A stretch of DNA of 64,000 bases from Tsukamurella spumae (lineage in GTDB: Bacteria > Actinomycetota > Actinomycetes > Mycobacteriales > Mycobacteriaceae). Under the pieces are notes generated by a model. The model saw nothing but the letters and a program-made list of their open reading frames with translations. It had not been told where the DNA came from and did not search any database. A program made the position numbers and the translations under genes. Where the stretch lies: the NCBI RefSeq assembly GCF_012396015.1, contig NZ_JAAXOQ010000011.1, forward strand, positions 62,001 through 126,000, read 5' to 3'. Position 1 is the first letter of the stretch; every line of letters begins with the position of its first letter. Positions 40,495 to 54,782 of this stretch are shown here, piece after piece.

Positions 40495-41735
40495 CCGGCC
40501 CGGCTCTTCGGCGCACGCTGGGCCTCGGCGACGCCGTCGCCGTGGGCCTGTCGGCGATGGTCGGCGCCGGTGTCTTCGTGGCCTTCGGGCCCGCCGCCGC
40601 GGCCGCCGGGTCCGCGTTGTTCGCCGGGCTCGCGGTGGCCGCAGCCCTCGCGTACTGCAATGCGAGCAGTTCCGCGCGGCTGGCCGCGCTGTACCCGCAG
40701 TCCGGCGGGACCTATGTCTACGGCCGGATCCGACTCGGCCCGTTCTGGGGTCACCTCGCCGGGTGGAGCTTCGTGGTCGGGAAGTCGGCGTCGTGCGCCG
40801 CGATGGCCCTGACGGTGGGCCACTACGCCTGGCCGCGGCACGCGCACGCCGTCGCGGTCGCCGCGGTGGTCGCCCTGACCGCGCTCAACATCGCCGGGGT
40901 CGAACGCTCGGCGCGTATGGCCCGCCTCGTCGTCGCCGGCGTACTCGCGGTGCTCGTCGCCTTCGTGGCCGTTGCTCTCACCGCGGACGGTGCGGACCCG
41001 GCCCGGGCCGTCGAGGGCGTCGCTGCGGGACCGTTCGGGGTGCTCCAGGCGGCGGGGCTGCTGTTCTTCGCGTTCGCGGGCTACGCCCGGATCGCCACCC
41101 TGGGCGAGGAGGTCCGGGACCCCGCGCGCACGCTGCCCCGGGCGATCTTCGTCGCGCTCGGTACCGCGCTGGCGGTGTACGCCCTGGTCGGCCTCGCGCT
41201 GGTCGCGGTCCTCGGAGTGGACGGGCTCGCGCGGTCGGCCGCGCCGGTCGCGGACGCCGCCCGCGCCGCCGGGTTCCCCGTGCCCGTGGTCACGGTCGCC
41301 GCCGCGGTCGCGGCCCTCGGGTCGCTGCTCGCGTTGATCCTCGGCGTGTCCCGCACCTCGCTCGCCATGGCGCGCGACGGGCACCTGCCCCGGGCGCTCG
41401 CCGTGGTCGACGAGAAGCGCCGGGTGCCGGTGCGCGCCGAGCTGGCGGTGGGCGCCGTCGTCGCGGTCGCCGCCGCCACCGTCGATCTGCGCGCGGCGAT
41501 CGGCTTCTCCTCGTTCGCGGTGCTCGGGTACTACGCCATCGCGAACGCCTCGGCCTGGACGCTCGACCCCTCGGTGCGGGCCCGGATCGTGCCCGGCTCG
41601 GGCCTCGTCGGATGCCTCCTCGTGGCGCTGTCGCTGCCCAGGGAGTCGGTCGTGGGCGGCATCGTCGTGCTCGCGGCCGGCGCCCTCGCCTACTGCGCGA
41701 CGCGCGCTAACAACCCTGCTGGTACAGAGCCTTGA
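40491..41735 (+). CDS. APC family amino acid permease
   Basis: A 414-residue transporter with about 12 helices. LGLGDAVAVGLSAMVGAGVFVAFGPAAAAAG is the unwound first helix of the LeuT-type fold. Other marks are YPQSGGTYVYGRIRLGPFWGHLAGWSFVVGKSASCAAMA and FFAFAGYARIATLGEEVRDPARTLPRAIF. It imports or exchanges an amino acid or amine. GTG 40491 overlaps the SRPBCC stop. The last 29 bp overlap the convergent ydcF-like gene. Confidence 0.88.
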   Translation: MTGPALRRTLGLGDAVAVGLSAMVGAGVFVAFGPAAAAAGSALFAGLAVAAALAYCNASSSARLAALYPQSGGTYVYGRIRLGPFWGHLAGWSFVVGKSASCAAMALTVGHYAWPRHAHAVAVAAVVALTALNIAGVERSARMARLVVAGVLAVLVAFVAVALTADGADPARAVEGVAAGPFGVLQAAGLLFFAFAGYARIATLGEEVRDPARTLPRAIFVALGTALAVYALVGLALVAVLGVDGLARSAAPVADAARAAGFPVPVVTVAAAVAALGSLLALILGVSRTSLAMARDGHLPRALAVVDEKRRVPVRAELAVGAVVAVAAATVDLRAAIGFSSFAVLGYYAIANASAWTLDPSVRARIVPGSGLVGCLLVALSLPRESVVGGIVVLAAGALAYCATRANNPAGTEP

Positions 41736-42264
41736 GCCAGCCCGCGCTCTGGTACCCCCAGCCGAACACCGTCTCGACGGGGCCGCGCCGTTCGGGGAAG
41801 TCGGTCATCTGCAGGGCGGCGCCGTAACAGCGCTCCAGGATGAACCGGGCGCGCTCGACGTGCGCGGTGGTCGTGACCACGATGATGTCGGTCCAGCCCC
41901 GGAGCTGAGCGAGCCGCTTGATCTCCTGTGCCTCTCCGCGGGTGGTCCACGGCTTGGGCAAGAAGCACATGACGTCGACACCCGCGATCTGCCGCGCGCA
42001 CAGATCGTGCATCCGGCTGTCGTCCTCACCGACCGAGTTGGACAGCACGACCTGGGACGCGAGGCCCTGCTCGGCGAGCCGGAGCCCGTACTCGAACCGG
42101 TCGTAGGGGTTGCCGCCGAGCACCACGATCGCGTCCGCATGCTGGAGCGACCGGTCGACCTGGGGCTGCACGTACGCGCGGTCCACGGTGATCCCGACGG
42201 TGACCACCAGTACGAGCGCGACCACGGCCGGGAGGACGCGGCGCAAGCGCCGCTGTCCGCTCAC
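41707..42264 (-). CDS. YdcF family (DUF218) membrane-anchored protein
   Basis: A 185-residue protein with one N-terminal helix (VLPAVVALVLVVTVGITV) and an extracytoplasmic DUF218 domain: DAIVVLGGNPYDRFEYGLRLAEQG, then VVLSNSVGEDDS and PWTTRGEAQEIKRLAQLRGWTDIIVVTTTAHVERARFI. Such domains are linked to envelope glycan metabolism (SanA, ElyC). GTG 42264 overlaps the upstream hydrolase stop as GTGA; GTG 42276 is an alternative. It is the last gene of the leftward glycan operon. Confidence 0.85.
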   Translation of the reverse strand: MSGQRRLRRVLPAVVALVLVVTVGITVDRAYVQPQVDRSLQHADAIVVLGGNPYDRFEYGLRLAEQGLASQVVLSNSVGEDDSRMHDLCARQIAGVDVMCFLPKPWTTRGEAQEIKRLAQLRGWTDIIVVTTTAHVERARFILERCYGAALQMTDFPERRGPVETVFGWGYQSAGWLKALYQQGC

Positions 42265-43844
42265 CGCTGCCTGCACCAGTCCAGTATCGCGGTTGCAACG
42301 ACCCGTCGCACCTCGGGGTGGTGTCCGGGGTGGTCACCGGTGGGGATGCGGACCGTCCGGACCGAGCCGGCGGACCGTCGGCGCGCGAGGGAATCGATGC
42401 CCTCGGGGCCGCGCTGATCGTCGAACCAGCCGGCGTCCGGTGGCGAGAGCACCAGCACCGTGTCCGTGCCCCCGTCGACGACGGGCCGCAGCAGCACCTC
42501 GGGGACCTGGGTGACGCCCCGTCGGCCGAGGTAGCGCCAGCCCGGGTACGGGAGGCGGCGCCGGAGCAGGTGTTTGAGCCGCCCGCGCGCACTGTGCGCG
42601 AACGCGGGGTCCGACCGGGGCGTCCCGAGGTCCTCCGCGGGGTCCTCGGCGATCGCGGCCTTGAGCCGCCAGGAGTACAGCACGGAGTTGACCAGGACCG
42701 TCGCGTCGGCCCGGACGGCGCGCGCGGCGTGCGCCGCGAACCACGACCCCGAGCACAGCCCGGCGGTGAGCAGCGGCCCCGTGCAGCTGTGCGCCGCGGC
42801 GACCGCGTCGTCGATGCCCGTCGCGGGGAAGAGGGGCACGACCTCGCCGGCGGAGACGGGTCCCGACTCGCCGGCACCGCGACGGTCGAACCGCACGGCC
42901 TCGCCGCCCAGCGCGGCGACCTCCCGTGCCAGCGCGACCCACGCGCGGTTCGGACCGTGCCGGGTGTCGTTCGCCGTGGCGCACAGCACCACGGAGCCGG
43001 TGGCGGCGCCCTGCGCCGGGAGGGTCCGTACCGCGGTCGCGCCGTCGATGTCCTCGATGCGCTCCTCCACGCGGCCGAGGCGCGCCCGGGTGCGGATCTC
43101 GGGGTCGACGGTGACCGGTGCACGGTCCGGCAGCGCCGCGGACAGCCAGGCGGCGATGTCGTCGAGGCCGCGATCGGGGATCCGGACCAGGTGCGTCGAG
43201 GCCTCGATGAACTCGGCCATGCCGTGGACGGTGAGGCGGTCGGCGTCCGCGGCGCCGACCGGCTCCGCGTCGGGCCGGGCCGCGACGAGCGTGCGCGGCG
43301 CGGTCAGCGCGTCCGCGGGTAGCCGCGAGAGGCCGGCGACGGCGTCCGCGTGTACGTCCAGACCGATCCAGGTTCCCGGTCCCGCGCCGACCGCCATGTG
43401 CGCCAGCGCCGTCCGGGACCGGGCGAAGGCCCGGCCCCCGATCGGGTCCCACAGCACCGCGGCGGGCGGTGCGAGCCCGGCGGCACCCGCGAGCGCGGCC
43501 CCGGCGCGGAGCGCCACGACCGCGGGTGCGCCCACGCCGAGCGCGCGCAGGTACGCGTCGGCGGTGCGGATCGAGTCGATCCAGGTCGTGACGGCGTCGG
43601 CGCGGCCGGCGTCGCCGGCGGAATCGCCGGTCCCGGCGTAGTCGAAACGCAGCACGACGAGGCCGTCCTCGGCGAGCAGGTCCGCCAGCCGTCGTAGGCC
43701 GCGCAGCGCGTCGTGTTGCTCCTTCGCCAGCGGCGGCACGATCAGCACCGCCCCGCGGACCGACCGCGATGCGGGCAGGTGCACCGCACCGTAGAGGGGC
43801 GCCGCCTCGGGGCCGAAGTAGGTGCGGATCTCAGTCGAGTGCAT
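42261..43844 (-). CDS. Two-domain alpha/beta hydrolase of the glycan cluster
   Basis: A 527-residue protein made of two alpha/beta-hydrolase-like halves. Half one (about 10-245) has AVLIVPPLAKEQHDALRGLRRLADLLAEDGLVVLRFDYAGTGDSAG. Half two (about 265-527) has VVLCATANDTRHGPNRAWVALAREVAALGGEAVRFDRRGAGES and a nucleophile-like GLCSGSWFA, ending in GDHPGHHPEV. In half one the elbow region reads ALRAGAAL, with no Ser, so that half may be inactive. Similar hydrolases accompany exosortase A-type polysaccharide loci. It may release or transfer acyl or aminoacyl groups. It overlaps its neighbours by 14 and 4 bp. Confidence 0.75.
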   Translation of the reverse strand: MHSTEIRTYFGPEAAPLYGAVHLPASRSVRGAVLIVPPLAKEQHDALRGLRRLADLLAEDGLVVLRFDYAGTGDSAGDAGRADAVTTWIDSIRTADAYLRALGVGAPAVVALRAGAALAGAAGLAPPAAVLWDPIGGRAFARSRTALAHMAVGAGPGTWIGLDVHADAVAGLSRLPADALTAPRTLVAARPDAEPVGAADADRLTVHGMAEFIEASTHLVRIPDRGLDDIAAWLSAALPDRAPVTVDPEIRTRARLGRVEERIEDIDGATAVRTLPAQGAATGSVVLCATANDTRHGPNRAWVALAREVAALGGEAVRFDRRGAGESGPVSAGEVVPLFPATGIDDAVAAAHSCTGPLLTAGLCSGSWFAAHAARAVRADATVLVNSVLYSWRLKAAIAEDPAEDLGTPRSDPAFAHSARGRLKHLLRRRLPYPGWRYLGRRGVTQVPEVLLRPVVDGGTDTVLVLSPPDAGWFDDQRGPEGIDSLARRRSAGSVRTVRIPTGDHPGHHPEVRRVVATAILDWCRQR

Positions 43845-44826
43845 CGATGATCTCCCTTGCCCGGTCCTCGTAAGTGTGCCCGCCGCGGGTGATCGCGGCG
43901 TGTCCGGCGGCGGCGATCCGCGCGGCGGCGGCGGGGTCGGCGACCACCCGCGCGACGATGTCGTCGATCTCCGCGGGGTCGTCGTAGAGCAGCGCCTCCC
44001 GGCCGTCGGCGAGCAACTCCGCGTGCTCGCCGGTACGCGGTCCCACGAACAGCCCGCCCGCCGCCGGCACCTCGAACGTGCGGCAGGTGTGCGTGTCCCG
44101 GTTGTCGGAGTTGAGCAATACCAGGTTGGCGCCGATCGCCGCGATCGCCGCCGACAGGTCGGTGCCGTACTGCGGACCGCGCACCGTCGCGCGCCCCGAG
44201 CGCAGGCCGAGCCGGCGACGCCAGCCGTTCCCGGCCAGGTAGAAGTCCTCGCCGTACGCGCGGGCCAGGCCGGTCAGCAATTCCGCGCGGTCCGGGCGGG
44301 CGTTGCCGACGAAGCCCGCGGCGTACCGTCGGGCCGTCCGCGGCGGGACCGGACGGTGCCAGGCCGGGTCGTACGCGCTGAGGACGTGGACGACCCGCCG
44401 CGCGCCGCGCGCGAGGAGCTCGGGCACGTTGTGCGCCTTGGTCGTCACGATCGCGTCCCATCCGGGCTCGCCCGCGAGGTACGCGGGGGTGGTGTTGACG
44501 GGATTGGACACGTCGTCGGCGCTGTAGTGCACGCGCCGCGCCGCGGGCAGCGCGAGCAGCCGCTCCTGGTCCAGATGGACCGCCGTGTAGCAGAACAGCA
44601 GGTCGGGAGTGGGCCGGGACTCCAGCGCGCGGTGCACGGCGTCGACGGTGCCGGGCGCGCGTTGCCCGGTCCGCTTGGCGAACCACCAGGCGGGGGACAG
44701 GCGCCGCGGCAGGGTGACCGGTGTGGTGTCGACGACGTCCACCTCGTGTCCCGCCGCGCGGAAGCCGTTCGCGAGGGAGCGGGCGTTGCTGCCGTACCAG
44801 TCGTCGCCGGCGAACAGGATCCTCAT
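43831..44826 (-). CDS. CgeB-like glycosyltransferase
   Basis: A 331-residue GT-B-like protein. It has MRILFAGDDWYGSNARSLANGFRAAGHEVDVVDTTP, DLLFCYTAVHLDQERLL, GFVGNARPDRAELLTGLA, then NLVLLNSDNRDTHTCRTFEVPAAGGLFVGPRTGEHAELLADGREALLY and a helical C-terminus. The late motif (FEVPAAGG) is the nucleotide-sugar site of CgeB-type transferases. The sugar is unknown. It overlaps the flippase by 4 bp and the hydrolase by 14 bp. Confidence 0.83.
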   Translation of the reverse strand: MRILFAGDDWYGSNARSLANGFRAAGHEVDVVDTTPVTLPRRLSPAWWFAKRTGQRAPGTVDAVHRALESRPTPDLLFCYTAVHLDQERLLALPAARRVHYSADDVSNPVNTTPAYLAGEPGWDAIVTTKAHNVPELLARGARRVVHVLSAYDPAWHRPVPPRTARRYAAGFVGNARPDRAELLTGLARAYGEDFYLAGNGWRRRLGLRSGRATVRGPQYGTDLSAAIAAIGANLVLLNSDNRDTHTCRTFEVPAAGGLFVGPRTGEHAELLADGREALLYDDPAEIDDIVARVVADPAAAARIAAAGHAAITRGGHTYEDRAREIIDALD

Positions 44827-46049
44827 GCGGCTGCGCCCGCCGACTCGAGCCGCCGGACCCGCAGCACCGAGAACCCCGCCGCGGCGGTCTGCGCCGCGAC
44901 CACCCCGAGCACCACCGTGAGCGGGTCGTGCGTGCGCATCGCCACGAGCAGGGCGACCGCGATGACGACGGCACCGACCGCGCCGACCAGCAGCACGCCC
45001 CGCGCGTCGTCGCGTACCGGCAGCACGGCCGTGGCCACGAAGGACGCGACGGCCAGGCCCGGCAGCGCCCAGGCCTGCACCTGGAGGAGGGGAACGGCAT
45101 CGTCAAACGCCGCACCGAAGACGAGGGGCACCGCCCACGGGGCGAGCACGGTGGCGGCGGCCGCGAGACCGACGCCACCGGCCGCGACCACGACGACCGT
45201 CCGGCGGGCGACCGCCCAGAACTCGCCGTCCGCGCGCCGGGCGAGGCGGGGGAGCAGGCTCATGCCCACCGCGTCCAACAGCGACCCCGCGGCATGCACG
45301 GGTCGGTCGCTCGCGCTGAACAGGCCGAGCGAGTGGGGGCTCAGAGCGGGGGAGAAGACGGTCGCGGCGCTCGGCCCGTAGGTCGAGGAGAGCAGCCGGG
45401 CGGCGAGGACGGGCGCTCCGGTGCGCAACAGGGCCACCGGCGGCCGGGGCCTCGCGGGCCGCCCGTAGTCGCGGACGGTGCGCGCCCAGGACCACGCGAC
45501 CGCGACCACTCCTCCGGCCAGCAGGCAGGCCATTGCCGCCTCCGGCGTCCGTACCCGCGGCAGGATCGTCACCAGCAGCACCAGGTAGACCACGCGCCCC
45601 GCGGTCTGCTGCAGCACGACGGCGCCGAAGCGCTGCGCGCCGATGAGCACCCAGTCCTCGCCGGACGCGCTCACCGACCCGACGACGAGCCCCAGCGCGG
45701 CCATCTCGACGCCCCGCGGCACCGGTAGTACGACGGTCAGCGCGAACAATGCCGCGAACACGCCGAGGGCGGCGCACCGCAGCCCGGCGTAATCGCCGCG
45801 CAGTCGGTCGAGGCCGGGCCTTCCGACGCGCGCCGCGGTGAACGCGGTGATGCCCAGGTCGGTGAACAGGGCACCCAGGAAGTAGGTCGACATGGCGACG
45901 GCGAGCAGCCCCATACCCGCCGGTCCGAGCACCCGCGCACACAGCGGGATCGTCACCAGCGTGATCACGTACTGGCCGTACCGGCCCGCCGAGACCAGCG
46001 CGACATCGCGCAGCACGCCCGCGGACCCGCGGAGCCGGACCGGGGTCAT
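44823..46049 (-). CDS. Wzx-type polysaccharide flippase (MOP superfamily)
   Basis: A 408-residue membrane protein with about 12 helices. It has DVALVSAGRYGQYVITLVTIPLCARVLGPAGMGLLAVAMSTYFLGALFTDLGITAFTAARVG, LLSSTYGPSAATVFSPALSPHSLGLFSASDRPVHAAGSL and AVPLVFGAAFDDAVPLLQVQAWALP. It should flip an undecaprenyl-linked oligosaccharide, or a related lipid-linked unit, across the membrane. No Wzy-like polymerase is visible nearby. ATG 46049 overlaps the upstream glycosyltransferase stop. Confidence 0.87.
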   Translation of the reverse strand: MTPVRLRGSAGVLRDVALVSAGRYGQYVITLVTIPLCARVLGPAGMGLLAVAMSTYFLGALFTDLGITAFTAARVGRPGLDRLRGDYAGLRCAALGVFAALFALTVVLPVPRGVEMAALGLVVGSVSASGEDWVLIGAQRFGAVVLQQTAGRVVYLVLLVTILPRVRTPEAAMACLLAGGVVAVAWSWARTVRDYGRPARPRPPVALLRTGAPVLAARLLSSTYGPSAATVFSPALSPHSLGLFSASDRPVHAAGSLLDAVGMSLLPRLARRADGEFWAVARRTVVVVAAGGVGLAAAATVLAPWAVPLVFGAAFDDAVPLLQVQAWALPGLAVASFVATAVLPVRDDARGVLLVGAVGAVVIAVALLVAMRTHDPLTVVLGVVAAQTAAAGFSVLRVRRLESAGAAA

Positions 46050-47185
46050 CGTCCGTCCCGGGCCACCCGCGCCAGCAGGGAGTCCGCGATCGCTGCGGAG
46101 GTCTTCAGGTCCAGGTCCCGGCCGCGGTCCGCCGCGGCGGCGGCGAGCTGCTCGCGTTGCTCCCAGTCCTCGATGAGCGTGTCGAGCGCCACGGCCAGCA
46201 GGTCCGGCCGACGGGGCGGGACCAGCACACCGTTGCGTCCATCGTCGATCAGCTCGGTGGGGCCGCCCGCACCCGCCGCGACCACGACGCGCCCGGCGGC
46301 CATCGCCTCGGCCACGACCTGCCCGAAGGGCTCGGTGAGCCGTGAGTAGTGCACCACGACATCGGCCGCGGCGGCCTCGGCGAGCGGGTCCGGCACGTGG
46401 CCGGTGAACTCGACCCGGTCGGTGAGCCCGAGGCGCCCGACGAGTTCCTCGAGTTCGGCGAGGTAGGCGTCGTCGCCGTCGAAGTGCGCACCGCCGACGA
46501 ATCGCACCCGCGGGGCGGACTCCATCTGGGCCAGGGCGCGCAGCACCAGGTCCTGCCCCTTCCAGGGCGTGATCCGCGCGATCATGGCGATCCGGACGTC
46601 CTTCGGCGATCGCTGCGGAGCCGGCGCGGGGACGGTCGTCATGTCGACGCCGGGCGGACACACCGCGGTCGGGCTGCCGCCGGTCGAGATCGTGGCGAGC
46701 GTCCCGCGCGAGTTCGCGAGGTAGCCCGCGGCCGCGATCCGGCCCAGCACTCGGAGGGGGAATCGCTTGCCGCCGAAGTACTCCGCGCTCACCCGGTCGT
46801 GGACCTGCCAGACGAGCGGGACACCGGCGCGGCGCGCGGCGACCGCCCCGACGAGCAGCGATCTGGTCGACTGCGCGACCAGCACGTCGGCGTCGTAGGC
46901 GCGCAGCAGCGGCGCGAGCCGCCGACCGTCGCGCAGCATCCCGACGGCGCCGCGGGCCACCGCGAGCGGCCCGGAGCCCCGGCGGACCTTCGCCGACCGG
47001 CCCCGGACCACCGTCACGGGCACGCCGTCGGCCTCCAGGACGTCGGTGAGCGGACCCGCGGCGAGCAGCACCACCGACGCGGGAACGCCCCGGCGCCGCA
47101 GCTCGCCGGCGAGCCGGGCGAAAGCCAGTTCCGCACCCGACGGTGCTGCGGTGTGGCCCAGGAAGACCGGACGCCGGGCGCTCAT
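46046..47185 (-). CDS. Glycosyltransferase family 4
   Basis: A 379-residue GT-B enzyme: VFLGHTAAPSGAELAFARLAGELRRRG, PLVWQVHDRVSAEYFGG, IAMIARITPWKGQDLVLRALAQM and the EX7E motif EPFGQVVAEAMAAGRVVVAAGAGGPTELI. It uses a nucleotide-activated sugar on a lipid-linked acceptor. ATG overlaps join it to its neighbours (ATGA at both ends). Confidence 0.9.
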   Translation of the reverse strand: MSARRPVFLGHTAAPSGAELAFARLAGELRRRGVPASVVLLAAGPLTDVLEADGVPVTVVRGRSAKVRRGSGPLAVARGAVGMLRDGRRLAPLLRAYDADVLVAQSTRSLLVGAVAARRAGVPLVWQVHDRVSAEYFGGKRFPLRVLGRIAAAGYLANSRGTLATISTGGSPTAVCPPGVDMTTVPAPAPQRSPKDVRIAMIARITPWKGQDLVLRALAQMESAPRVRFVGGAHFDGDDAYLAELEELVGRLGLTDRVEFTGHVPDPLAEAAAADVVVHYSRLTEPFGQVVAEAMAAGRVVVAAGAGGPTELIDDGRNGVLVPPRRPDLLAVALDTLIEDWEQREQLAAAAADRGRDLDLKTSAAIADSLLARVARDGR

Positions 47186-48246
47186 GCGGCCACCGCCCGG
47201 TACAGGTCGGCGTGGCGTTCCGCGGCGGTGGCCCAGCCGAACCGCTCCGCGTACGCGCGACAGGCGGCCACGCCCGGACGGTCCCCGTCGAGCGCCGCGA
47301 CCAGACGGTGCGCGAGCGCCTCCGCGTCGGTGGCGGGGACCACCAGATCGGGCTCGAGGCCCCGGACCGCGTCCGGCAGCCCGCCGATGTCGGTCACCAC
47401 GGGCGCGCGGCCGGCGGCGAGCGATTCGAGCGCGACCAGGCCGAAGCCCTCCCACGATCGCGAGGGGACGACGGTGACCGTCGCCGCGGCGTACCTGCGC
47501 GCCAGCTCGGCGTCGTCGATCGGACCCACGAGGGTCACCGTATCCGCAATCCCGAGCTCCGCTGTGCGTTCGGTGAGCTCCCGCCCCAAGGGGCCGTCGC
47601 CGACCACGTCGAGCCGCGCCAGGGGATGGCGCGCGCGGACGCCGCGCCACGCGTCGAGCAGGACGTCGATGCCCATCCGGCGCTCGAGCCGGCGCACGCA
47701 GAGCACGCGGGGCGGACCGTCGGGCACGGCGGCCGCGGGGAACCGCTCAAGGTCGACCCCCGGCGGGATGACCGCGACGAGCCCGCGGTCGGCGCCGTAG
47801 CGCTCGACGAGGACATCGGCGAAGGCCTGCGAGAGCACCACGAAACGGTCGCTGCCGCGGTACCGGGCGCGCTCGATCAGGGCCTTGAGCGCGACCGCGA
47901 CTCGCCCCTCGCCCGCGGCGGCGCTCTCCAGCGCCCACGGGCCGTGGAAGTGCGTGACCAGCCGGGCGTCGTGCGGCGCGGGGCCGAACAGCGCGAAGTG
48001 CCGGTCGAGGACGCGGGTGCCCGACGGTGCCGGACGTCGCGACGCCCGTACCCGTGTGAGCGTCGACCCGGCATCGGGACCCCACGAGGTGCCGCCGGCC
48101 TCGGGCGCGCCGAAGGCGGCCGCCGAGACCTCCAGGTCCGCGCGGCGTCGCAGCGCGCCGAACAGGCCCGCGAAGTAGCGGGGGAGTCCGCCGGGCGCGA
48201 CGGACGGCCACTGCGTCCCGGTGAGGTGGATGGCCGGCCCGGTCAC
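47182..48246 (-). CDS. Glycosyltransferase family 4
   Basis: A 354-residue GT-B enzyme: IHLTGTQWPSVAPGGLPRYFAGLFGAL, LVTHFHGPWALES, VLCVRRLERRMGIDVLLDAWRGVR and the EX7E motif SWEGFGLVALESLAAGRAPVVTDIGGLPDAV. GTG 48246 overlaps the stop of the amino acid:carrier ligase as GTGA, so the glycan and aminoacyl genes are translationally coupled here. The acceptor sugar is unknown. Confidence 0.9.
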   Translation of the reverse strand: MTGPAIHLTGTQWPSVAPGGLPRYFAGLFGALRRRADLEVSAAAFGAPEAGGTSWGPDAGSTLTRVRASRRPAPSGTRVLDRHFALFGPAPHDARLVTHFHGPWALESAAAGEGRVAVALKALIERARYRGSDRFVVLSQAFADVLVERYGADRGLVAVIPPGVDLERFPAAAVPDGPPRVLCVRRLERRMGIDVLLDAWRGVRARHPLARLDVVGDGPLGRELTERTAELGIADTVTLVGPIDDAELARRYAAATVTVVPSRSWEGFGLVALESLAAGRAPVVTDIGGLPDAVRGLEPDLVVPATDAEALAHRLVAALDGDRPGVAACRAYAERFGWATAAERHADLYRAVAA

Positions 48247-49196
48247 AGCTGCGCGTTCACGGCGTTCGGCCAGGACCGGCGGTCCAGGCCGTGCGCGGCG
48301 AGCAGTGCGAGCGCGATCCGCTCGATCCCGAAGCCCAAGCAGGCGCTGTGGGCGGGCGCGCCGTCCACGGTGGTGATGTCGAAGTGCACCCCGAAATGAT
48401 CGCGGTGGTAGTTGCTCGACGCCACGGCGACCCCCGGCAGGTCGTCGCCGTAGAGGGGGACGATCAGCTCGGTCTTGAGGTTGCCCGCGGACTGGCTGGC
48501 CGCGAGCATGCGGCCCCCGCGCCCGAAGAACGGATCGGTCGCGGGCGCGCGCTGGACCCGCAGGTCCAGCTCGGCGAGCAGATCGGCCGCGCGCGCGGCC
48601 CAGGTGTCGCGGTGCGCGACGGCGGCGCGGTCGGAGCCGACCCGCACGATCTCCCGCATCCGGAAGGACTGCATGCGCGCCGGGTCGATCGAGGGCTCCC
48701 TGCGGTAGCAGTGGCCGGAGACGTCGATCCACGCGCCGTCCCGCGGCAGTTCGCCGGTGAGGGTGGGGTAGACGCAGTGGCAGGCCGACGGCACCAGGGC
48801 CACGTCGCTCGCGCGGAAGTGCCCGCCCCAGTCGTGGCCGGCGGCGCGCCCCGCGAGGAGCAGACGGTGCTCCGCATCGCCCCCGGGGTAGGTGGACACC
48901 ACGCCCGCGAGGTGTGGGAACGACGCGATGTAGTCGGTGCGATCGATGACCTCGCGCGGCATCACAGGGGGGAAGGACAGGACGGTGGCGGCCCCGCCGT
49001 GCACCTCGCGGACCGCGGCGGCGACGAGCGCGTCGATCGCGGAGGTCAGCTCCGTGAAGCCGGCGCCGTGGCCGTACACGCCGTCGACTCCCGTGGGGAT
49101 GAGGAGCCCCGCGTCGAAGAGGGACGTGCGGAATTCCTGCTGACGGCGGTACAGGTCAGTAAAGTCGACTACACGTGCTGTCGCGGCCCGGGTCAT
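48243..49196 (-). CDS. Amino acid:[carrier protein] ligase (SerRS-like)
   Basis: A 317-residue class II aminoacyl-tRNA synthetase-like catalytic core without a tRNA-binding arm. The likely zinc ligands are Cys139 (VPSACHCVYP), Glu182 (FRMREIVRVG) and Cys286 (HSACLGFGIERIALALL). Motif 2 is CYRREPSIDPARMQSFRMRE. This matches the characterised bradyrhizobial enzymes that activate small amino acids and load them on a carrier protein instead of tRNA. A carrier protein gene lies 142 bp away, divergently. GGAGATGAGG precedes ATG 49196. It heads a seven-gene leftward operon with glycosyltransferases and a flippase. The amino acid (Gly or Ala in studied cases) cannot be read here. Confidence 0.9.
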   Translation of the reverse strand: MTRAATARVVDFTDLYRRQQEFRTSLFDAGLLIPTGVDGVYGHGAGFTELTSAIDALVAAAVREVHGGAATVLSFPPVMPREVIDRTDYIASFPHLAGVVSTYPGGDAEHRLLLAGRAAGHDWGGHFRASDVALVPSACHCVYPTLTGELPRDGAWIDVSGHCYRREPSIDPARMQSFRMREIVRVGSDRAAVAHRDTWAARAADLLAELDLRVQRAPATDPFFGRGGRMLAASQSAGNLKTELIVPLYGDDLPGVAVASSNYHRDHFGVHFDITTVDGAPAHSACLGFGIERIALALLAAHGLDRRSWPNAVNAQL

Positions 49197-49221
49197 TCGG
49201 CCTCATCTCCGGCGGTGGAAC

Positions 49222-49254
49222 TGTTGTCACTGCAACACGCTACCAGGCTAGGGT
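49222..49254. promoter_or_regulatory. Divergent promoter region of the aminoacyl-glycan cluster
   Basis: In the 142-bp gap between the ligase and carrier-protein starts, TTGTCA (49224-49229) and TAGGGT (49249-49254, 19 bp apart) form a possible rightward promoter. The inverted repeat TGTTG-N6-CAACA (49222-49237) overlaps the -35 and could bind a regulator of both operons. Confidence 0.45.
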
Positions 49255-49338
49255 GTACGGCGGCGGCGCACATGTCGTGAACGCAAAGCGGATGCGCACC
49301 CTCCGGGGCTGCGGGTGCGCCGCAGGTGAGGAGACCGT

Positions 49339-49575
49339 GTGGAAGAGCCGATCCGGGAGATCGTGGCCCGGCACGGAAGGCTGGCCAGGGCGATGTCGGA
49401 CGTTGCGGGTGGTGACGATCTGTATGCACTGGGGCTCACCTCGCACGCTGCCGTGAATGTGATGCTGGCGATCGAAGATCGATTCGCGATCGAGTTCCCA
49501 GATTCAGACATGAGCAAGAACACATTCGGCACATTGGACTCGATCGTCGCCACGGTCCGCCGACTCGGCGGCTGA
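49339..49575 (+). CDS. Acyl/aminoacyl carrier protein
   Basis: A 78-residue, mostly helical carrier protein. The phosphopantetheine site is LGLTSHAAVNVMLAIED with Ser35, so the usual DSL reads TSH as in carriers paired with amino acid:[carrier protein] ligases. A short loop and FAIEFPDSDMSKNTFGTLDSIVATVRRL complete the fold. GTG 49339 has GAGGAG 5-6 nt upstream. It is first in a rightward operon with a glycosyltransferase and AcpS. Its likely cargo is an aminoacyl group loaded by the divergent ligase. Confidence 0.9.
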   Translation: MEEPIREIVARHGRLARAMSDVAGGDDLYALGLTSHAAVNVMLAIEDRFAIEFPDSDMSKNTFGTLDSIVATVRRLGG

Positions 49576-49581
49576 GCGCCG

Positions 49582-50688
49582 ATGACCCGCATCGCGGTCG
49601 TCCATGAACGGTGGACGGAACAGGGCGGCTCGGAGCAGGTCGTCCGCGCGCTCGCCGAGGAATGGCCCGACGCCCTCGTCCACGTCGCCTTCGCCGACCC
49701 GCGGACCGTCCCGCCGGGGCTGCGCGACCGGATGGCGGTCACCCGCCTGGATCGCGTGCACCGCGCCCTGGGGCGCCGCGCGCACGCGCCGCTCATCCCG
49801 CTGGCCCCGGCCGCCTGGGGCCGACACCCCGCCGATGCCGGCGTCGACGCGGTGGTCATCAGCCATCACGCCGTCGGCGTCTCCGCGGCGCGCGCGTGGT
49901 CCGGCGTGCCGGTGATCGCCTATGTCCACTCGCCGGCCCGGTGGGCCTGGATGCCCGAGCAGCGCTCCGCGGAGTCGCACGGCCCCGTCGGACGCCTGGC
50001 CCTGGCCGCCCTCGCCGCCCGGACCCGCGCCGTCGAGGCCGCGGCGGTACCGCACCTGTCCGTGGTGGTCGCGAACTCGACGGCGGTCGCCCGCCGGATC
50101 GAACGCTGGTGGGGCGTGCCCGCGCGGGTGGTCGCGCCGCCCGTCGACGTCGACCGGTTCACGCCCGACGGTGCCGCGCCCGGCGGGTACTTCCTGGTCG
50201 CGGGCAGGCTCGTCCCCGCCCGCCGCGTCGATCTCGCGATCCGTGCGGCGCAGCGTGCGGGTGTGCGGCTGGTCGTGGCCGGCGAGGGACGCCACGACGC
50301 GGCCCTGCGCGGGCTCGCCGGTCCGGAGACCACCTTCCTCGGCCGGGTCAGCGACGCCGAGATGGTGCACCTGCAGCGCGACGCGATCGCGACGATCATG
50401 CCCGCCGAGGAGGACTTCGGCATCGTGCCGGTGGAGGCCATGGCGGCGGGGACGCCCGTCATCGCCCGCGCCGCGGGCGGGGCCCTCGACACCGTCGTGC
50501 CCGGAACCTCCGGGGTCCTCGTGCCCGACGGGGCCCACGGGGACTTCGTCGCCGCGCTCGCGGGCGCGATCCGGGACTTCCGGCGCGAGGACTTCGACCC
50601 GGCGCTGTTGCGCGCCCACGCGGAGCTCTACTCGGCGTCGATGTTCCGGATGCGGATGCGCGAGATCGTCGACGGGGTCGCCGGATGA
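49582..50688 (+). CDS. Glycosyltransferase family 4
   Basis: A 368-residue GT-B enzyme: IAVVHERWTEQGGSEQVVRALAEEWP, VPVIAYVHSPARWAWMPEQRSAES, VANSTAVARRIERWWGVPARVVAPPVDVDRFTP and the EX7E motif EEDFGIVPVEAMAAGTPVIARAAGGALDTV. It resembles mannosyltransferase-like WcaI/PimB-type enzymes. It lies 6 bp after the carrier protein and overlaps acpS by 4 bp, so it is tied to aminoacyl transfer. Confidence 0.9.
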   Translation: MTRIAVVHERWTEQGGSEQVVRALAEEWPDALVHVAFADPRTVPPGLRDRMAVTRLDRVHRALGRRAHAPLIPLAPAAWGRHPADAGVDAVVISHHAVGVSAARAWSGVPVIAYVHSPARWAWMPEQRSAESHGPVGRLALAALAARTRAVEAAAVPHLSVVVANSTAVARRIERWWGVPARVVAPPVDVDRFTPDGAAPGGYFLVAGRLVPARRVDLAIRAAQRAGVRLVVAGEGRHDAALRGLAGPETTFLGRVSDAEMVHLQRDAIATIMPAEEDFGIVPVEAMAAGTPVIARAAGGALDTVVPGTSGVLVPDGAHGDFVAALAGAIRDFRREDFDPALLRAHAELYSASMFRMRMREIVDGVAG

Positions 50689-51080
50689 ACCGCGTCGGGA
50701 TCGATCTCGCGGCGGTCGCCGACATCGAGGACTCGCTGGCGAGCTTCGGCACCCGCTTCACGGACCGCGTCTTCACCCCGGCCGAGGTCGCGGACTGCGC
50801 GGGCGATCCGCGGCGGCTCGCGGCGCGCTGGGCGGCCAAGGAAGCGGTGATCAAAGCGCTGCGGCTCGGTCCCGACGACGCCGCGCCGCCCCGTGAGATC
50901 GAGGTGGTCGGCGGCGCGCACGGACCCGAGGTGCGCCTGCACGGCGGCCTCGCGGAGCGCGCACGGCGAGCGGGCTGGCACCGGGTCGAGGTCTCCCTCA
51001 CGCACACCGACTGCCACGCCGCTGCGGTCGTGCTCGCCGAGCTGGACGAGGCCGGCGCGCCGCACTCGCGTACGGACTAA
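50685..51080 (+). CDS. AcpS-type 4'-phosphopantetheinyl transferase (holo-ACP synthase)
   Basis: A 131-residue AcpS-family enzyme. The metal-binding residues are Asp7 (VGIDLAAVADIE) and Glu53 (RWAAKEAVIKAL), with EVSLTHTDCHAAAVVLAE at the C-terminus. It transfers phosphopantetheine from CoA to Ser35 of the linked carrier protein. ATG 50685 overlaps the glycosyltransferase stop. The housekeeping acpS should lie elsewhere in the genome, so this copy is probably dedicated. Its last 4 bp overlap the convergent sugar transferase. Confidence 0.9.
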   Translation: MNRVGIDLAAVADIEDSLASFGTRFTDRVFTPAEVADCAGDPRRLAARWAAKEAVIKALRLGPDDAAPPREIEVVGGAHGPEVRLHGGLAERARRAGWHRVEVSLTHTDCHAAAVVLAELDEAGAPHSRTD

Positions 51081-52447
51081 CCGCCGCCGCGGCCGAAGAG
51101 CACCGTGCCCACCGACATGAGCACGATCTTCGCGTCGAGCCAGAGGCTCCAGTTCTCGATGTAGTAGTTGTCGTAGGACGCGCGATCCTTGATGTCCGTG
51201 TCGCCGCGCAGCCCGTGGATCGCGGCCCATCCGGTCAGGCCCACCTTGACCCGATGGCGCGACTGGTAGGCCGGGATCTCCTGGCCGAACCGGTCGACGA
51301 AGTGCGGCCGCTCCGGGCGCGGGCCCACCACCGACATGTCGCCGCGCACCACGTTCCACAGCTGCGGCAACTCGTCGATCGAGTGCCGGCGCAGGCAACG
51401 GCCGAGCCGGGTGATGCGGAGCGACTCGTCCGTCCAGGCGCGGTCCGACTCCTCGTCCGGCACGGGGCGCATGGTGCGGAACTTGTACAGCGAGAACAGC
51501 CGGCCGTCCTGCCCGACGCGCGTCTGCCGGAAGAGGATGGGCGCGGCCGGCTCCTGGACCTTGATCGCGACCGCGACCGCGACGAGCAGCGGCGAGAACA
51601 ACACGAGGCCCAGCAGCGATGTGGCCAGGGAGGTGACGCGCTTGATCCGCCAGTGGCTGGTGCGCAGGGCGAGTCGGCGCACCAGGACGAGCGGCGTCGT
51701 GTGGATCCGGTCCATGTCGCGGTCCTGGTGCACGAACTCGTAGAGCCGGGGCACCACGTAGATCTCGCAGTCCAGGTGGTCGCACTCGCGCAGCGGCTCG
51801 ACCAGTGTCGAATCGCGGTCGCGGGAGTACGCGACGATGACGGTGTCGATCTCGCGCTCGAGAATCAGCGCCGCGAGGTCGGAGCGGCGCGGGATCACCT
51901 CGACGGGGAAGGCCGTGGCGTCCAGCGGATCGTCGTCCATCACGAGCGCGGGCCGCAGCCCGTACACCGGATACTCGAACATCGAGTTCACCAGTTCGCC
52001 GGCGACCTTGCCGCCGCCGATCACGAGCGTGCGCGATCCGCGTTCGGGGCGGCGCTCGCGGCCGCGCCGCACCGTCCAGTAGTAGACGATGCGCAGGGCG
52101 AACAGTGTGAGGAAGCACAGGCCCGCTTGGACGAAGCGCGCGCGGTCGTGGTCCCACAGCGCGAGGACGGCGAACGGCCAGAGCAACAGGCCCGCGATGA
52201 TCAGTTGCGGCGCGGTGTCGAGCGCGCTCAGCGTGATCCGCGACCGGTACAGCCCGAACAGGTACAACACGGCCACCGTGACCGCGCCCGCCAGCACGAC
52301 CCGCGCCGGCGGCGGGACGGGCACGCCGCGGATCAGGTCGGTCACGAACACGAAGGCCACCAGGACGACGAAGTCGAGGATCGCGAGCACCCACGTGTGG
52401 CGGCGTGTGCGGCGGCCGCTGCCCGGGGGGACTCCGATCGTGGTCAT
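51077..52447 (-). CDS. Polyprenyl-phosphate sugar-1-phosphate transferase (WcaJ/CpsE type)
   Basis: A 456-residue initiating glycosyltransferase. Four N-terminal helices and a CoA-binding-like domain (TLVIGGGKVAGELVNSMFEYPVYGLRPALVMDDD) precede a fifth helix (LATSLLGLVLFSPLLVAVAVAIKVQ) and the catalytic region: LFSLYKFRTMRPVPDEES, LRRHSIDELPQLWNVVRGDMSVVGPRPERPHFV, then GLTGWAAIHGLRGDT. It moves a sugar phosphate to the polyprenyl carrier to start the repeat unit. It is convergent with acpS and divergent from the condensation-domain gene. Confidence 0.92.
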   Translation of the reverse strand: MTTIGVPPGSGRRTRRHTWVLAILDFVVLVAFVFVTDLIRGVPVPPPARVVLAGAVTVAVLYLFGLYRSRITLSALDTAPQLIIAGLLLWPFAVLALWDHDRARFVQAGLCFLTLFALRIVYYWTVRRGRERRPERGSRTLVIGGGKVAGELVNSMFEYPVYGLRPALVMDDDPLDATAFPVEVIPRRSDLAALILEREIDTVIVAYSRDRDSTLVEPLRECDHLDCEIYVVPRLYEFVHQDRDMDRIHTTPLVLVRRLALRTSHWRIKRVTSLATSLLGLVLFSPLLVAVAVAIKVQEPAAPILFRQTRVGQDGRLFSLYKFRTMRPVPDEESDRAWTDESLRITRLGRCLRRHSIDELPQLWNVVRGDMSVVGPRPERPHFVDRFGQEIPAYQSRHRVKVGLTGWAAIHGLRGDTDIKDRASYDNYYIENWSLWLDAKIVLMSVGTVLFGRGGG

Positions 52448-52557
52448 GCGCTGCTCGGATCATCTCGGTGTCGGTCTGTCGATCGCATACTAGGTCACCC
52501 CGGTACCGGGACTACAACGTCAGCAGTACGACACCCCGCGCGAGTAGGGTGTCCGGG

Positions 52558-53982
52558 GTGCAACCGCTCCCGTCCCAGCTCGCGATGCTGCGTCTGGAGG
52601 CGCAGAACCCGGGGTCGGCCGCGCTCCGGATCGAGGCGGCCTGGCGCACCTCCGAGCGGGTCGACGAGCATGCGTTGGTACGCGCCGCCGCGGGCGCCCT
52701 GGACGAGACGGAGGTCGCCGGGCTCGGTGCGCGTCACGGGGCCGACGGTGTCGTCGGCTTCGTCCCGGCCCCGCGTTCAGCGATCGACGTCCGCGCCTTC
52801 GACACCGAGAGCGAGTACCGCGCCTGGCGCGCCGCCCCGGTCCCGTCGCCCGACGGTGCCGCGCTGGTCGGCATCGCCGTCGTCCGGGTCGGCACCGATC
52901 ACGTGTTCGTGGTCCGCGCTCACCACGCGGTACTCGACGGCTACGGGCTCGAGCTCCTGGCGCGACGGGTCCTGCAGCGCTACCCGCGCGAGGTCGCGGG
53001 GCTCCCGCTGCCGCATGTCGGGCTCGGGAGTCTCGAGGAGGTCGCCGCGCAGGTCGCGCCGGCGCGCCTACCGGATCTGACGTTCTGGTCGGGGGCCACA
53101 GACGGCGTCGGGCAGCCGGGCCGCGAGATCGCCTTCACCCCCCGTGCGGCCCCACAGGCGGAGCGACCGCTGCTGTACCGCGAGAGCATCCGGGTTCCGG
53201 GCCTGCACGACCGGGCGGCGTGGCCGAGCGAGGCGGTGGGCACCGTCGGCGCGTACACCGCGCGGTACCTGGGTACGACCGACGCCCGGATCGGGGTGGT
53301 GTTGGCGCTGCGCCGCACCCCCGCGCAGCGGGCCACGCCCGTGCAGTGGATGGCGGTGGTACCGATGCGGCTCGAGGTGCTCGCCGATTCGACGCCCGCA
53401 GCCCTGGGCGGTCGGGTGAACCGATGGCTGACGGCCGCGGGGAAGCGGGTCGCCGACGGCGAGCGTCCCGAGGAGCTGCTGACGGCGTTGCCGGCTGCGT
53501 GGCGTACCGGCCGGCTGTACGGTCCGGCGGTCAATGTCCTGCCGTACGTGCGTCACGAGGGCTGGACCGTCGACGTGGGGGCGTGGGGGCCGGTGGAGGA
53601 CTGCCTGTTCAACATCTGGCCGGGTCCGGACGACGAGCTCGTGGTCGAGGGAGCCTTCCATCCGGAGCTGTACACGCCGGAGCGGGCCCGGGGGCACGTC
53701 GAGGCGTTGACCGCGCTGCTGACGGTGTCCCTGGCGTCGCCCTTCCACCCCTTCGCGACGATCCCGAAGAAGCCGATCGCCGCCGACCGGATCGCCGTAC
53801 CGGGCGGGTGGATCTCGCCCGCCGAGCTGCAGGGTGCCCTCGCGAGCGCCGGATTCACCTCCCACGAGACGGAGCTCCTGACGACCGAGCCGGTCACCGT
53901 GGTGCTGCGCGGCGTGGCACCGCACCGGCTCCTCGCGGCGCGGGCGGTGCTGCCGCCGGGCGTGCGCCTCCGCGTGCGCTGA
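52558..53982 (+). CDS. Stand-alone NRPS-type condensation domain protein
   Basis: A 474-residue protein, the length of one condensation domain. The catalytic motif HHAVLDG (residues 122-128, fitting HHxxxDG) is intact. The C-terminal half has IGVVLALRRTPAQ...PMRLEVLA and VNVLPYVRHEGWTVDVG...CLFNIWPG, typical of the domain, without a clear DFGWG motif. Such enzymes join carrier-bound aminoacyl or acyl groups to an amine or alcohol. Here the donor may be the aminoacyl carrier protein 3 kb away. GTG 52558 lies 7 nt after TAGGGT (52545-52550), so it is leaderless. PapA-type acyltransferases are related alternatives. Confidence 0.82.
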   Translation: MQPLPSQLAMLRLEAQNPGSAALRIEAAWRTSERVDEHALVRAAAGALDETEVAGLGARHGADGVVGFVPAPRSAIDVRAFDTESEYRAWRAAPVPSPDGAALVGIAVVRVGTDHVFVVRAHHAVLDGYGLELLARRVLQRYPREVAGLPLPHVGLGSLEEVAAQVAPARLPDLTFWSGATDGVGQPGREIAFTPRAAPQAERPLLYRESIRVPGLHDRAAWPSEAVGTVGAYTARYLGTTDARIGVVLALRRTPAQRATPVQWMAVVPMRLEVLADSTPAALGGRVNRWLTAAGKRVADGERPEELLTALPAAWRTGRLYGPAVNVLPYVRHEGWTVDVGAWGPVEDCLFNIWPGPDDELVVEGAFHPELYTPERARGHVEALTALLTVSLASPFHPFATIPKKPIAADRIAVPGGWISPAELQGALASAGFTSHETELLTTEPVTVVLRGVAPHRLLAARAVLPPGVRLRVR

Positions 53983-54116: not shown

Positions 54117-54719
54117 CTAGGAGACGGTGGCCTTACCGTCGGCGAAGGTGATCGTCCCGTGCTGGAAGGTCTGCTTGATCACGCCACCCTCCGAGGTCTC
54201 GTCGCTCGTCGGGTAGCCGAGCTTGCCGGCCTCGTGGCCCGACTCGCCCCACTTGTCGCCGATCACGCCGTGGACGACGTGCGCGCCGCTGGCCTCCGAC
54301 CAGTAGATGGTGCCGCCCTTGAGGGTGAGGAACTTGCCGTGGCTGTCGGGCAGCGCGGCGACGGGGCCGAGCGGGGCGCCGAGGTGGCCCTTGCCGTAGC
54401 CGTACTTGGCGTACTCCGCGAGGATCGGCGCATCCGTGATGGTGACCTCGGTGCCGCCCGCGGTCTGCAGCGTTGTCGACGGAACCGCAGGCTTCGCCTC
54501 GGAGCCGCTGCCGGTGACATTGCTCACCGCGGCGCCGGCGGCGGAGGTGGCCTGTGCGGCGGCGTCGCCCGCGGCCGAGGTGGCGGCGGCTGCAACGCTG
54601 CCCGCGGCGGAGGTGGCGGAGCTCGCCGTGTCCTTCGCCTTCTCACAGGCGGCAAGGCCGGTGGAAAGGACCGTGACGGCGGCGATCGCGCCGATCGTCC
54701 GAGTGATCCGAGCGTTCAT
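54117..54719 (-). CDS. LGFP repeat-containing lipoprotein
   Basis: A 200-residue secreted protein. The signal peptide ends in lipobox GLAAC (Cys25). A low-complexity Ala/Ser/Thr stretch (SAAGSVAAAATSAAGDAAAQATSAAG) forms a wall-spanning linker. Then two LGFP-like repeats appear: LGAPLGPVAALPDSHGKFLTLKGGTIYWSEASGAHVVHG and LGYPTSDETSEGGVIKQTF. LGFP repeats are thought to bind the cell wall of mycolata. ATG 54719 is chosen over an upstream start. It lies beside the glycan cluster but is transcribed separately. Confidence 0.9.
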   Translation of the reverse strand: MNARITRTIGAIAAVTVLSTGLAACEKAKDTASSATSAAGSVAAAATSAAGDAAAQATSAAGAAVSNVTGSGSEAKPAVPSTTLQTAGGTEVTITDAPILAEYAKYGYGKGHLGAPLGPVAALPDSHGKFLTLKGGTIYWSEASGAHVVHGVIGDKWGESGHEAGKLGYPTSDETSEGGVIKQTFQHGTITFADGKATVS

Positions 54720-54782
54720 GTGAGTGTCCCATCGACAGCGTGAATTCGAACGCACGCATATAACCACATTTACGACACCCGC

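Follow-up and report, generated by a model that had tools for sequence, protein, structure and literature searches.

An amino acid:[carrier protein] ligase pathway in a glycan cluster of Tsukamurella spumae and a hydrolase that accompanies the ligase

What does a pathway that appears to load an amino acid on a carrier protein do in the midst of genes for making and exporting a glycan? The question is raised by a 64,000-nucleotide stretch of the Tsukamurella spumae genome (RefSeq assembly GCF_012396015.1, 4.46 Mb in 79 contigs; contig NZ_JAAXOQ010000011.1, positions 62,001 to 126,000), here called the window. In it, genes for a SerRS-like amino acid:[carrier protein] ligase, a small carrier protein, an AcpS-type phosphopantetheinyl transferase and a condensation-fold protein are interleaved with genes for a sugar-phosphate transferase, glycosyltransferases and a flippase; this arrangement, pointed out earlier in a sequence-only reading of the window, is borne out by family scans. 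Tentatively, we suggest that the carrier pathway modifies a lipid-linked glycan with a group derived from an amino acid. The cluster is real and conserved in most of the Tsukamurella genomes searched, and it is a variant of a predicted, unproven system. Its unusual mix of parts could help to reveal the purpose of a poorly understood ligase family. Moreover, a two-domain alpha/beta hydrolase from the same gene run is a newly named partner that tracks the ligase across genomes.

The identities of the loading proteins can be read from their families and retained residues. The ligase (317 aa; 48243..49196, minus strand) passes the curated family NF005479 (391.2 bits, cut-off 357) and aligns to structures of Bll0957-type ligases (4h2w, E 2.6e-60; 3mey, E 6.1e-60); its closest named relative is from Tsukamurella pseudospumae (96%). 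Bll0957 is a rhizobial amino acid:[carrier protein] ligase reportedly described by Mocibob in 2010 and 2013. Direct reading of the sequence confirmed Cys139, Glu182 and Cys286, the residues singled out earlier, which we take to be zinc ligands. In an alignment of 57 ligases (those below 300 bits were left out of both the alignment and the ligase tree), Cys139 and Cys286 are each present in 57/57 rows and position 182 is Glu in 54 and Asp in 3; R165, R174 and R293, presumably the class II motif arginines, are invariant (57/57). The carrier (49339..49575, plus strand) passes NF005480 (90.5 bits, cut-off 72) and matches 4h2w_C and 2jq4. Its attachment residue, Ser35, which had also been named correctly, is kept in all 43 carrier rows of at least 60 bits. 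The entry 4h2w contains both a ligase chain and a carrier chain matching these two families. Amino acid loading by the ligase is thus predicted from strong homology. The AcpS protein (50685..51080, plus strand) passes PF01648 (55.6 bits, cut-off 25) and falls below the NCBIfam equivalog cut-offs for holo-ACP synthase (TIGR00516, 52.7 versus 59.8; the PRK models likewise). Three proteins in the genome match PF01648, two of them elsewhere, so the cluster AcpS is an extra one. It had been called dedicated; its presence is clear, and from linkage it probably serves the neighbouring carrier.

Among 16 Tsukamurella genomes, 11 carry the ligase, carrier, AcpS and condensation protein together in one order, with condensation orthologs 48-100% identical. 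In two others (G010 and G012) the ligase and carrier lie in a rearranged run with a condensation protein that is 31-32% identical. Glycosyltransferases accompany the set in all 13 of these genomes and the flippase in 12, the contig of G002 ending before the flippase. The remaining three genomes carry a form with a DUF1839 protein (G007), no ligase (G008), or the carrier and a fragmented ligase but no condensation protein (G014). Nine named loci duplicating other genomes (L031-L038, L040) were left out of the alignments, the ligase tree and the locus counts. The sequence-only reading had proposed checking whether the four genes co-occur. Within the genus they largely do, but the condensation protein is not a general partner: in a search of 101 related genomes its strong matches were limited to Tsukamurella, and it is the Cys-hydrolase rather than the condensation protein that tracks the ligase widely.

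Conceivably, synteny has preserved a ligase and a carrier that are relics, and the glycan pathway is independent of both. In G010 and G012 a ligase that looks intact persists in a stripped locus where no carrier adjoins it, and the G014 ligase reads in three pieces. However, the invariant or nearly invariant catalytic columns of the ligase and the unbroken retention of Ser35 argue against decay, and in G014 the stretch with the decayed ligase has also lost the glycan genes. We regard this explanation as very improbable.

The hydrolase (42261..43844, minus strand) was found in 29 of the 101 related genomes (E 1e-12) and the ligase in 36, and all 29 hydrolase genomes carry the ligase (Fisher 4.8e-19 by genome, 3.8e-9 by genus, relatedness not corrected). 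It is missing from seven ligase genomes: G014 and six order-level relatives in which the ligase matches are weaker (E >= 1.5e-51). Among 296 class-wide genomes, a sample sharing some genomes with the first, the ligase was found in 16 (E 1e-40), the hydrolase in 16 (E 1e-20) and both in 13, again with relatedness not corrected. In an alignment of 30 hydrolases (at least 300 bits; pieces below 300 bits were left out), Cys364 stands in a G-x-C-x-G motif in 30/30 rows. Among the 29 rows that reach the region, Asp504 is present in 27, His505 in 29 and Asp470 in 25 (Glu in the other 4). In the N-terminal half, the place matching Cys364 is taken by neither Ser nor Cys; Arg113 occupies that position. 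In the structure model (predicted local distance difference test, pLDDT, 88), Cys364 lies between a strand (358-363) and a helix (365-377), and both halves match alpha/beta hydrolases in structure comparison. A thiol nucleophile would be well suited to exchanging acyl groups with a thioester on the carrier. The best NCBIfam matches are the exosortase A-associated hydrolases, far below cut-off (TIGR03101, 66.6 versus 202.75 bits; TIGR03100, 61.2 versus 168.45). Unlike those hydrolases 1 and 2, the window hydrolase is one protein with two domains, and PMC1569441 offers no support for an exosortase link.

Two of the class-wide genomes with a hydrolase and no ligase match at E 1e-40 (G164 and G263) have the hydrolase, carrier, AcpS and an amino-acid-adenylation-type enzyme in the stretch. 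The enzyme of G164 is barely under the TIGR01733 cut-off (313.8 versus 317.4) and that of G263 bears its own carrier and thioesterase domains. With only two cases, and such enzymes maybe common, this proximity could be chance. The hydrolase stretch of G156, which ends at a contig edge, and a second hydrolase locus in G202 (L117) hold no carrier. Loci L109 and L110 combine hydrolase, carrier, AcpS and an adenylation-type enzyme without the ligase; in L110, an adenylation-thiolation-thioesterase (A-T-TE) protein overlaps the start of the hydrolase.

How does the window cluster relate to what has been described? A note in proof in PMC2922099 (2010) predicted, for the usual ligase module, that an amino acid is transferred to a cell-surface sugar; in that module the ligase is joined by a dehydrogenase-like protein, a conserved uncharacterised protein and a glycosidase. 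The sequence-only reading knew of no described system with this gene set; in view of that prediction, its central idea is not new. A 2022 review (PMC9437257) still regards what carrier aminoacylation by these ligases does biologically as unknown. The rhizobial module resembles the window cluster in its ligase and carrier families, its linkage to surface-saccharide genes and the suggestion, made in PMC2922099, that an amino acid is passed to a sugar. It differs in having the dehydrogenase-like protein, DUF1839 and glycosidase, where the window cluster has the condensation protein instead. None of those three proteins was found in the window stretch, and DUF1839 was also not found genome-wide. 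Atu2574, named in the 2010 paper, is presumably a DUF1839 protein. Among the literature matches listed, a direct query included, none described a condensation domain next to this ligase; this negative excludes Additional file 1 of PMC2922099, which may list further neighbours.

A wider survey separates two forms of the module. There are 67 deduplicated ligase loci (at least 250 bits), of which 48 have the carrier in the stretch (stretches of up to about 20 kb, some cut by contig ends). These 48 loci hold the hydrolase in 37 cases, AcpS in 35, the dehydrogenase-like protein in 26, DUF1839, a GH2-like protein and the sugar transferase in 20 each, the flippase in 14 and the condensation protein in 13. 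All 20 DUF1839 loci also hold the dehydrogenase-like and GH2-like proteins and none has the condensation protein, so the count of loci with both DUF1839 and condensation protein is 0/48. In whole genomes, DUF1839 occurs in 12/101, all with the ligase and none with a strong condensation match. Two alternative processing sets are never seen in one locus. Together with the hydrolase partner and the glycan setting of the ligase, this opens the old prediction to specific deletion and assay tests. In the ligase tree (56 rows), a Tsukamurella-Segniliparus group of 17 rows (support 90/94, not starred) falls among DUF1839-type ligases. The labels on the tree are clustered relative to shuffles, a clustering inflated by near-copies. 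The direction of the swap between the DUF1839 and condensation forms can only be inferred from this tree.

The condensation gene (52558..53982, plus strand) had been read as a stand-alone condensation domain with HHAVLDG. The fold and the motif hold up, HHxxxDG being retained in 11/11 orthologs, but the protein is under the PF00668 cut-off (16.2 versus 30.6 bits) and the start assigned earlier, 52405, is uncertain. That start overlaps the start of the sugar transferase gene; a GTG at 52558 fits the starts of 2/7 relatives (L031 and L040), and the picks in the other five are longer. Of its relatives, that in L086 passes PF00668 (50.8) and that in L072 fails (23). In the relatives from L086 and L088, the first His of the motif is replaced by Asp. 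In L086 (G012) there are 4-base overlaps between the successive carrier, glycosyltransferase and condensation genes. The nearest proteins by sequence are ObiF1, RzmA and VibH, and the fold is that of a condensation domain of nonribosomal peptide synthetases (NRPS). A model built from 52561 onward with 8 sequences agrees with this, its structure matches being solved condensation domains that include RzmA and CDA entries.

An alternative, in line with the sequence-only reading, is that the condensation protein itself, in the manner of VibH, passes the amino acid from the carrier to a sugar amino group and that the hydrolase is only an editing thioesterase. The protein shares its fold and HHxxxDG with VibH and with starter condensation domains (RzmA, the first C domain of CDA, ObiF1). 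Unlike them, it stands in a glycan cluster, and no NRPS gene was recognised around it. We consider this alternative possible, if doubtful.

In our preferred explanation, AcpS would attach the phosphopantetheine arm to the carrier, and the SerRS-like ligase would adenylate a small amino acid and load it as a thioester. The condensation protein may then form an amide with the carrier-bound amino acid, as starter and free-standing condensation domains do; we hold N-acylation on the carrier to be slightly more probable than a direct handover to a sugar. The Cys-nucleophile hydrolase would take the acyl group off the carrier and give it to the glycan, or possibly edit the carrier. The glycan would be assembled on a lipid carrier by the sugar transferase and glycosyltransferases and exported by the flippase. 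The sequences themselves establish the protein identities, the conserved catalytic residues, the coupling of the genes and their joint inheritance; the choice of amino acid, the order of these steps, the roles of the condensation protein and hydrolase, the transfer, its acceptor and its product are put forward here as proposals.

The layout of the cluster bears on this scheme. It had been given as 48243..53982, where the four proteins indeed lie; it extends left to 41707, however, and takes in the conserved hydrolase, which had gone unlisted. The leftward run of seven genes on the minus strand is headed by the ligase. It continues with two family 4-like glycosyltransferases (47182..48246, PF13692, 107.2 bits; 46046..47185, PF00534, 111.4 bits), a Wzx-like flippase (44823..46049, PF01943, 54.3 bits), a third glycosyltransferase (43831..44826, PF13524, 87.9 bits), the hydrolase and a YdcF-like DUF218 protein (41707..42276, PF02698, 46.1 bits, cut-off 27.6). 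Successive genes overlap by 4 to 16 bases; the starts of the flippase and of the 46046..47185 glycosyltransferase were set by inspection. The rightward run on the plus strand consists of the carrier, an adjoining family 4-like glycosyltransferase (49582..50688, PF00534, 82.8 bits) and AcpS. Beyond it lie the initiating sugar-phosphate transferase, a polyprenyl glycosylphosphotransferase (51077..52447, minus strand; TIGR03025, 365 bits, cut-off 295.55; PF02397, 213.5 bits), and the condensation gene. The close grouping of the ligase with a sugar-phosphate transferase, four glycosyltransferases and a flippase makes a direct search for the acceptor possible.

The carrier pathway might instead yield a free N-acyl amino acid or a small lipid and merely share the cluster with the glycan genes. 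Starter condensation domains acylate carrier-bound amino acids, and RzmA and CDA are among the condensation matches; a distant ligase branch also adjoins an AurF-like family, a natural-product-like setting. However, the ligase and hydrolase belong to one overlapping run with three glycosyltransferases and a flippase, and relatives of the glycan genes go along with the ligase in other genera. Such relatives stand with the ligase in Segniliparus (L078) and in a cluster of the DUF1839 type (L081). A free product therefore seems unlikely to us.

Several observations weigh against transfer of an amino acid-derived group to the glycan by way of the condensation protein and hydrolase. Pfam and NCBIfam scans of the 12 cluster genes picked out none for an acyl donor, for amino-sugar synthesis or for a polymerase. 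Fifteen of the 48 carrier-linked loci, Segniliparus included, have neither the condensation protein nor DUF1839, so not every locus requires a condensation step. The hydrolase is absent from 11/48 carrier-linked stretches; for five of these (L067, L081, L083, L086, L088) it was found outside the stretch. In the class-wide sample, three of 16 ligase genomes have the ligase only (G073, G137, G283) and three of 16 hydrolase genomes the hydrolase only (G156, G164, G263). Among solved structures, the hydrolase fold comes closest mainly to esterases and lipases. Confidence in the condensation model is moderate (pLDDT 71; predicted template modelling score, pTM, 0.55), and the best Foldseek matches of the model reach a template modelling (TM) score of about 0.45 with a root-mean-square deviation of 9-10 Å. 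These low TM-scores may be explained by the moderate quality of the model.

A more specific version of the preferred explanation, which we hold to be somewhat unlikely, is that the cluster is a dismantled NRPS starter module rebuilt for glycan decoration. It would comprise a condensation domain with a scrap of adenylation domain, acting in trans with a free carrier that the class II tRNA-synthetase-like ligase loads, and the Cys-hydrolase handing over an N-acyl amino acid to lipid-linked glycan. If true, this would join ribosomal-type amino acid activation and a true nonribosomal domain in a surface-glycan pathway. The C-terminal tail of the condensation protein aligns in the expected register to the NRPS adenylation C-subdomain, for which a reference was obtained from 5/8 NRPS stretches fetched (hhalign P 0.0043, 11/13 tails used; P 0.0026 for the L086 and L088 tails). 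Random segments match those scores in 2/400 and 2/400 cases, and the window tail alone scores lower (15.7). Even with the threshold at E 10, Pfam gave no AMP-binding_C match for either L086 or L072. On this sequence evidence, descent of the tail from an adenylation C-subdomain is suggestive only.

Two known systems offer further parallels. In Dlt D-alanylation of teichoic acid, a dedicated ligase (DltA) charges a small carrier (DltC) with an amino acid for an envelope polymer. DltA is acyl-CoA-synthetase-like, whereas the window ligase is tRNA-synthetase-like, and the window carrier is far under the DltC model cut-off (24.2 versus 68). The Dlt transfer step is carried out by DltB and DltD. Butirosin BtrH also performs a carrier-to-sugar acyl transfer and has a papain-like superfamily fold as does DUF1839, which PMC10318531 places in that superfamily with a C(T/S)H triad; DUF1839, as noted, was not found in the Tsukamurella genome of the window.

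Some minor observations concern neighbours and ligase loci. An LGFP-repeat protein (window 54117-54767) adjoins the condensation gene and has the same place in Tsukamurella relatives. At the other side of the cluster, a putative permease gene lies at about 40.5-41.7 kb. L048 has a tandem pair of ligase genes. L071 (G012) and L073 (G010) hold an intact-looking ligase, a sugar transferase and YdcF with no carrier, and a second ligase with a carrier lies elsewhere. In L037/L074 (Tsukamurella sp. PLM1) the ligase is in three pieces, the carrier is kept and the stretch no longer holds the glycan genes. Finally, the distant ligase branch without this carrier family (L055-L059, L061, L098, L099, L100) adjoins protein family F9 in nine loci. 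The one member of F9 scanned, from L061, matches the Pfam AurF-like N-oxygenase, and a small carrier-like open reading frame is present in L058, L059 and L098.

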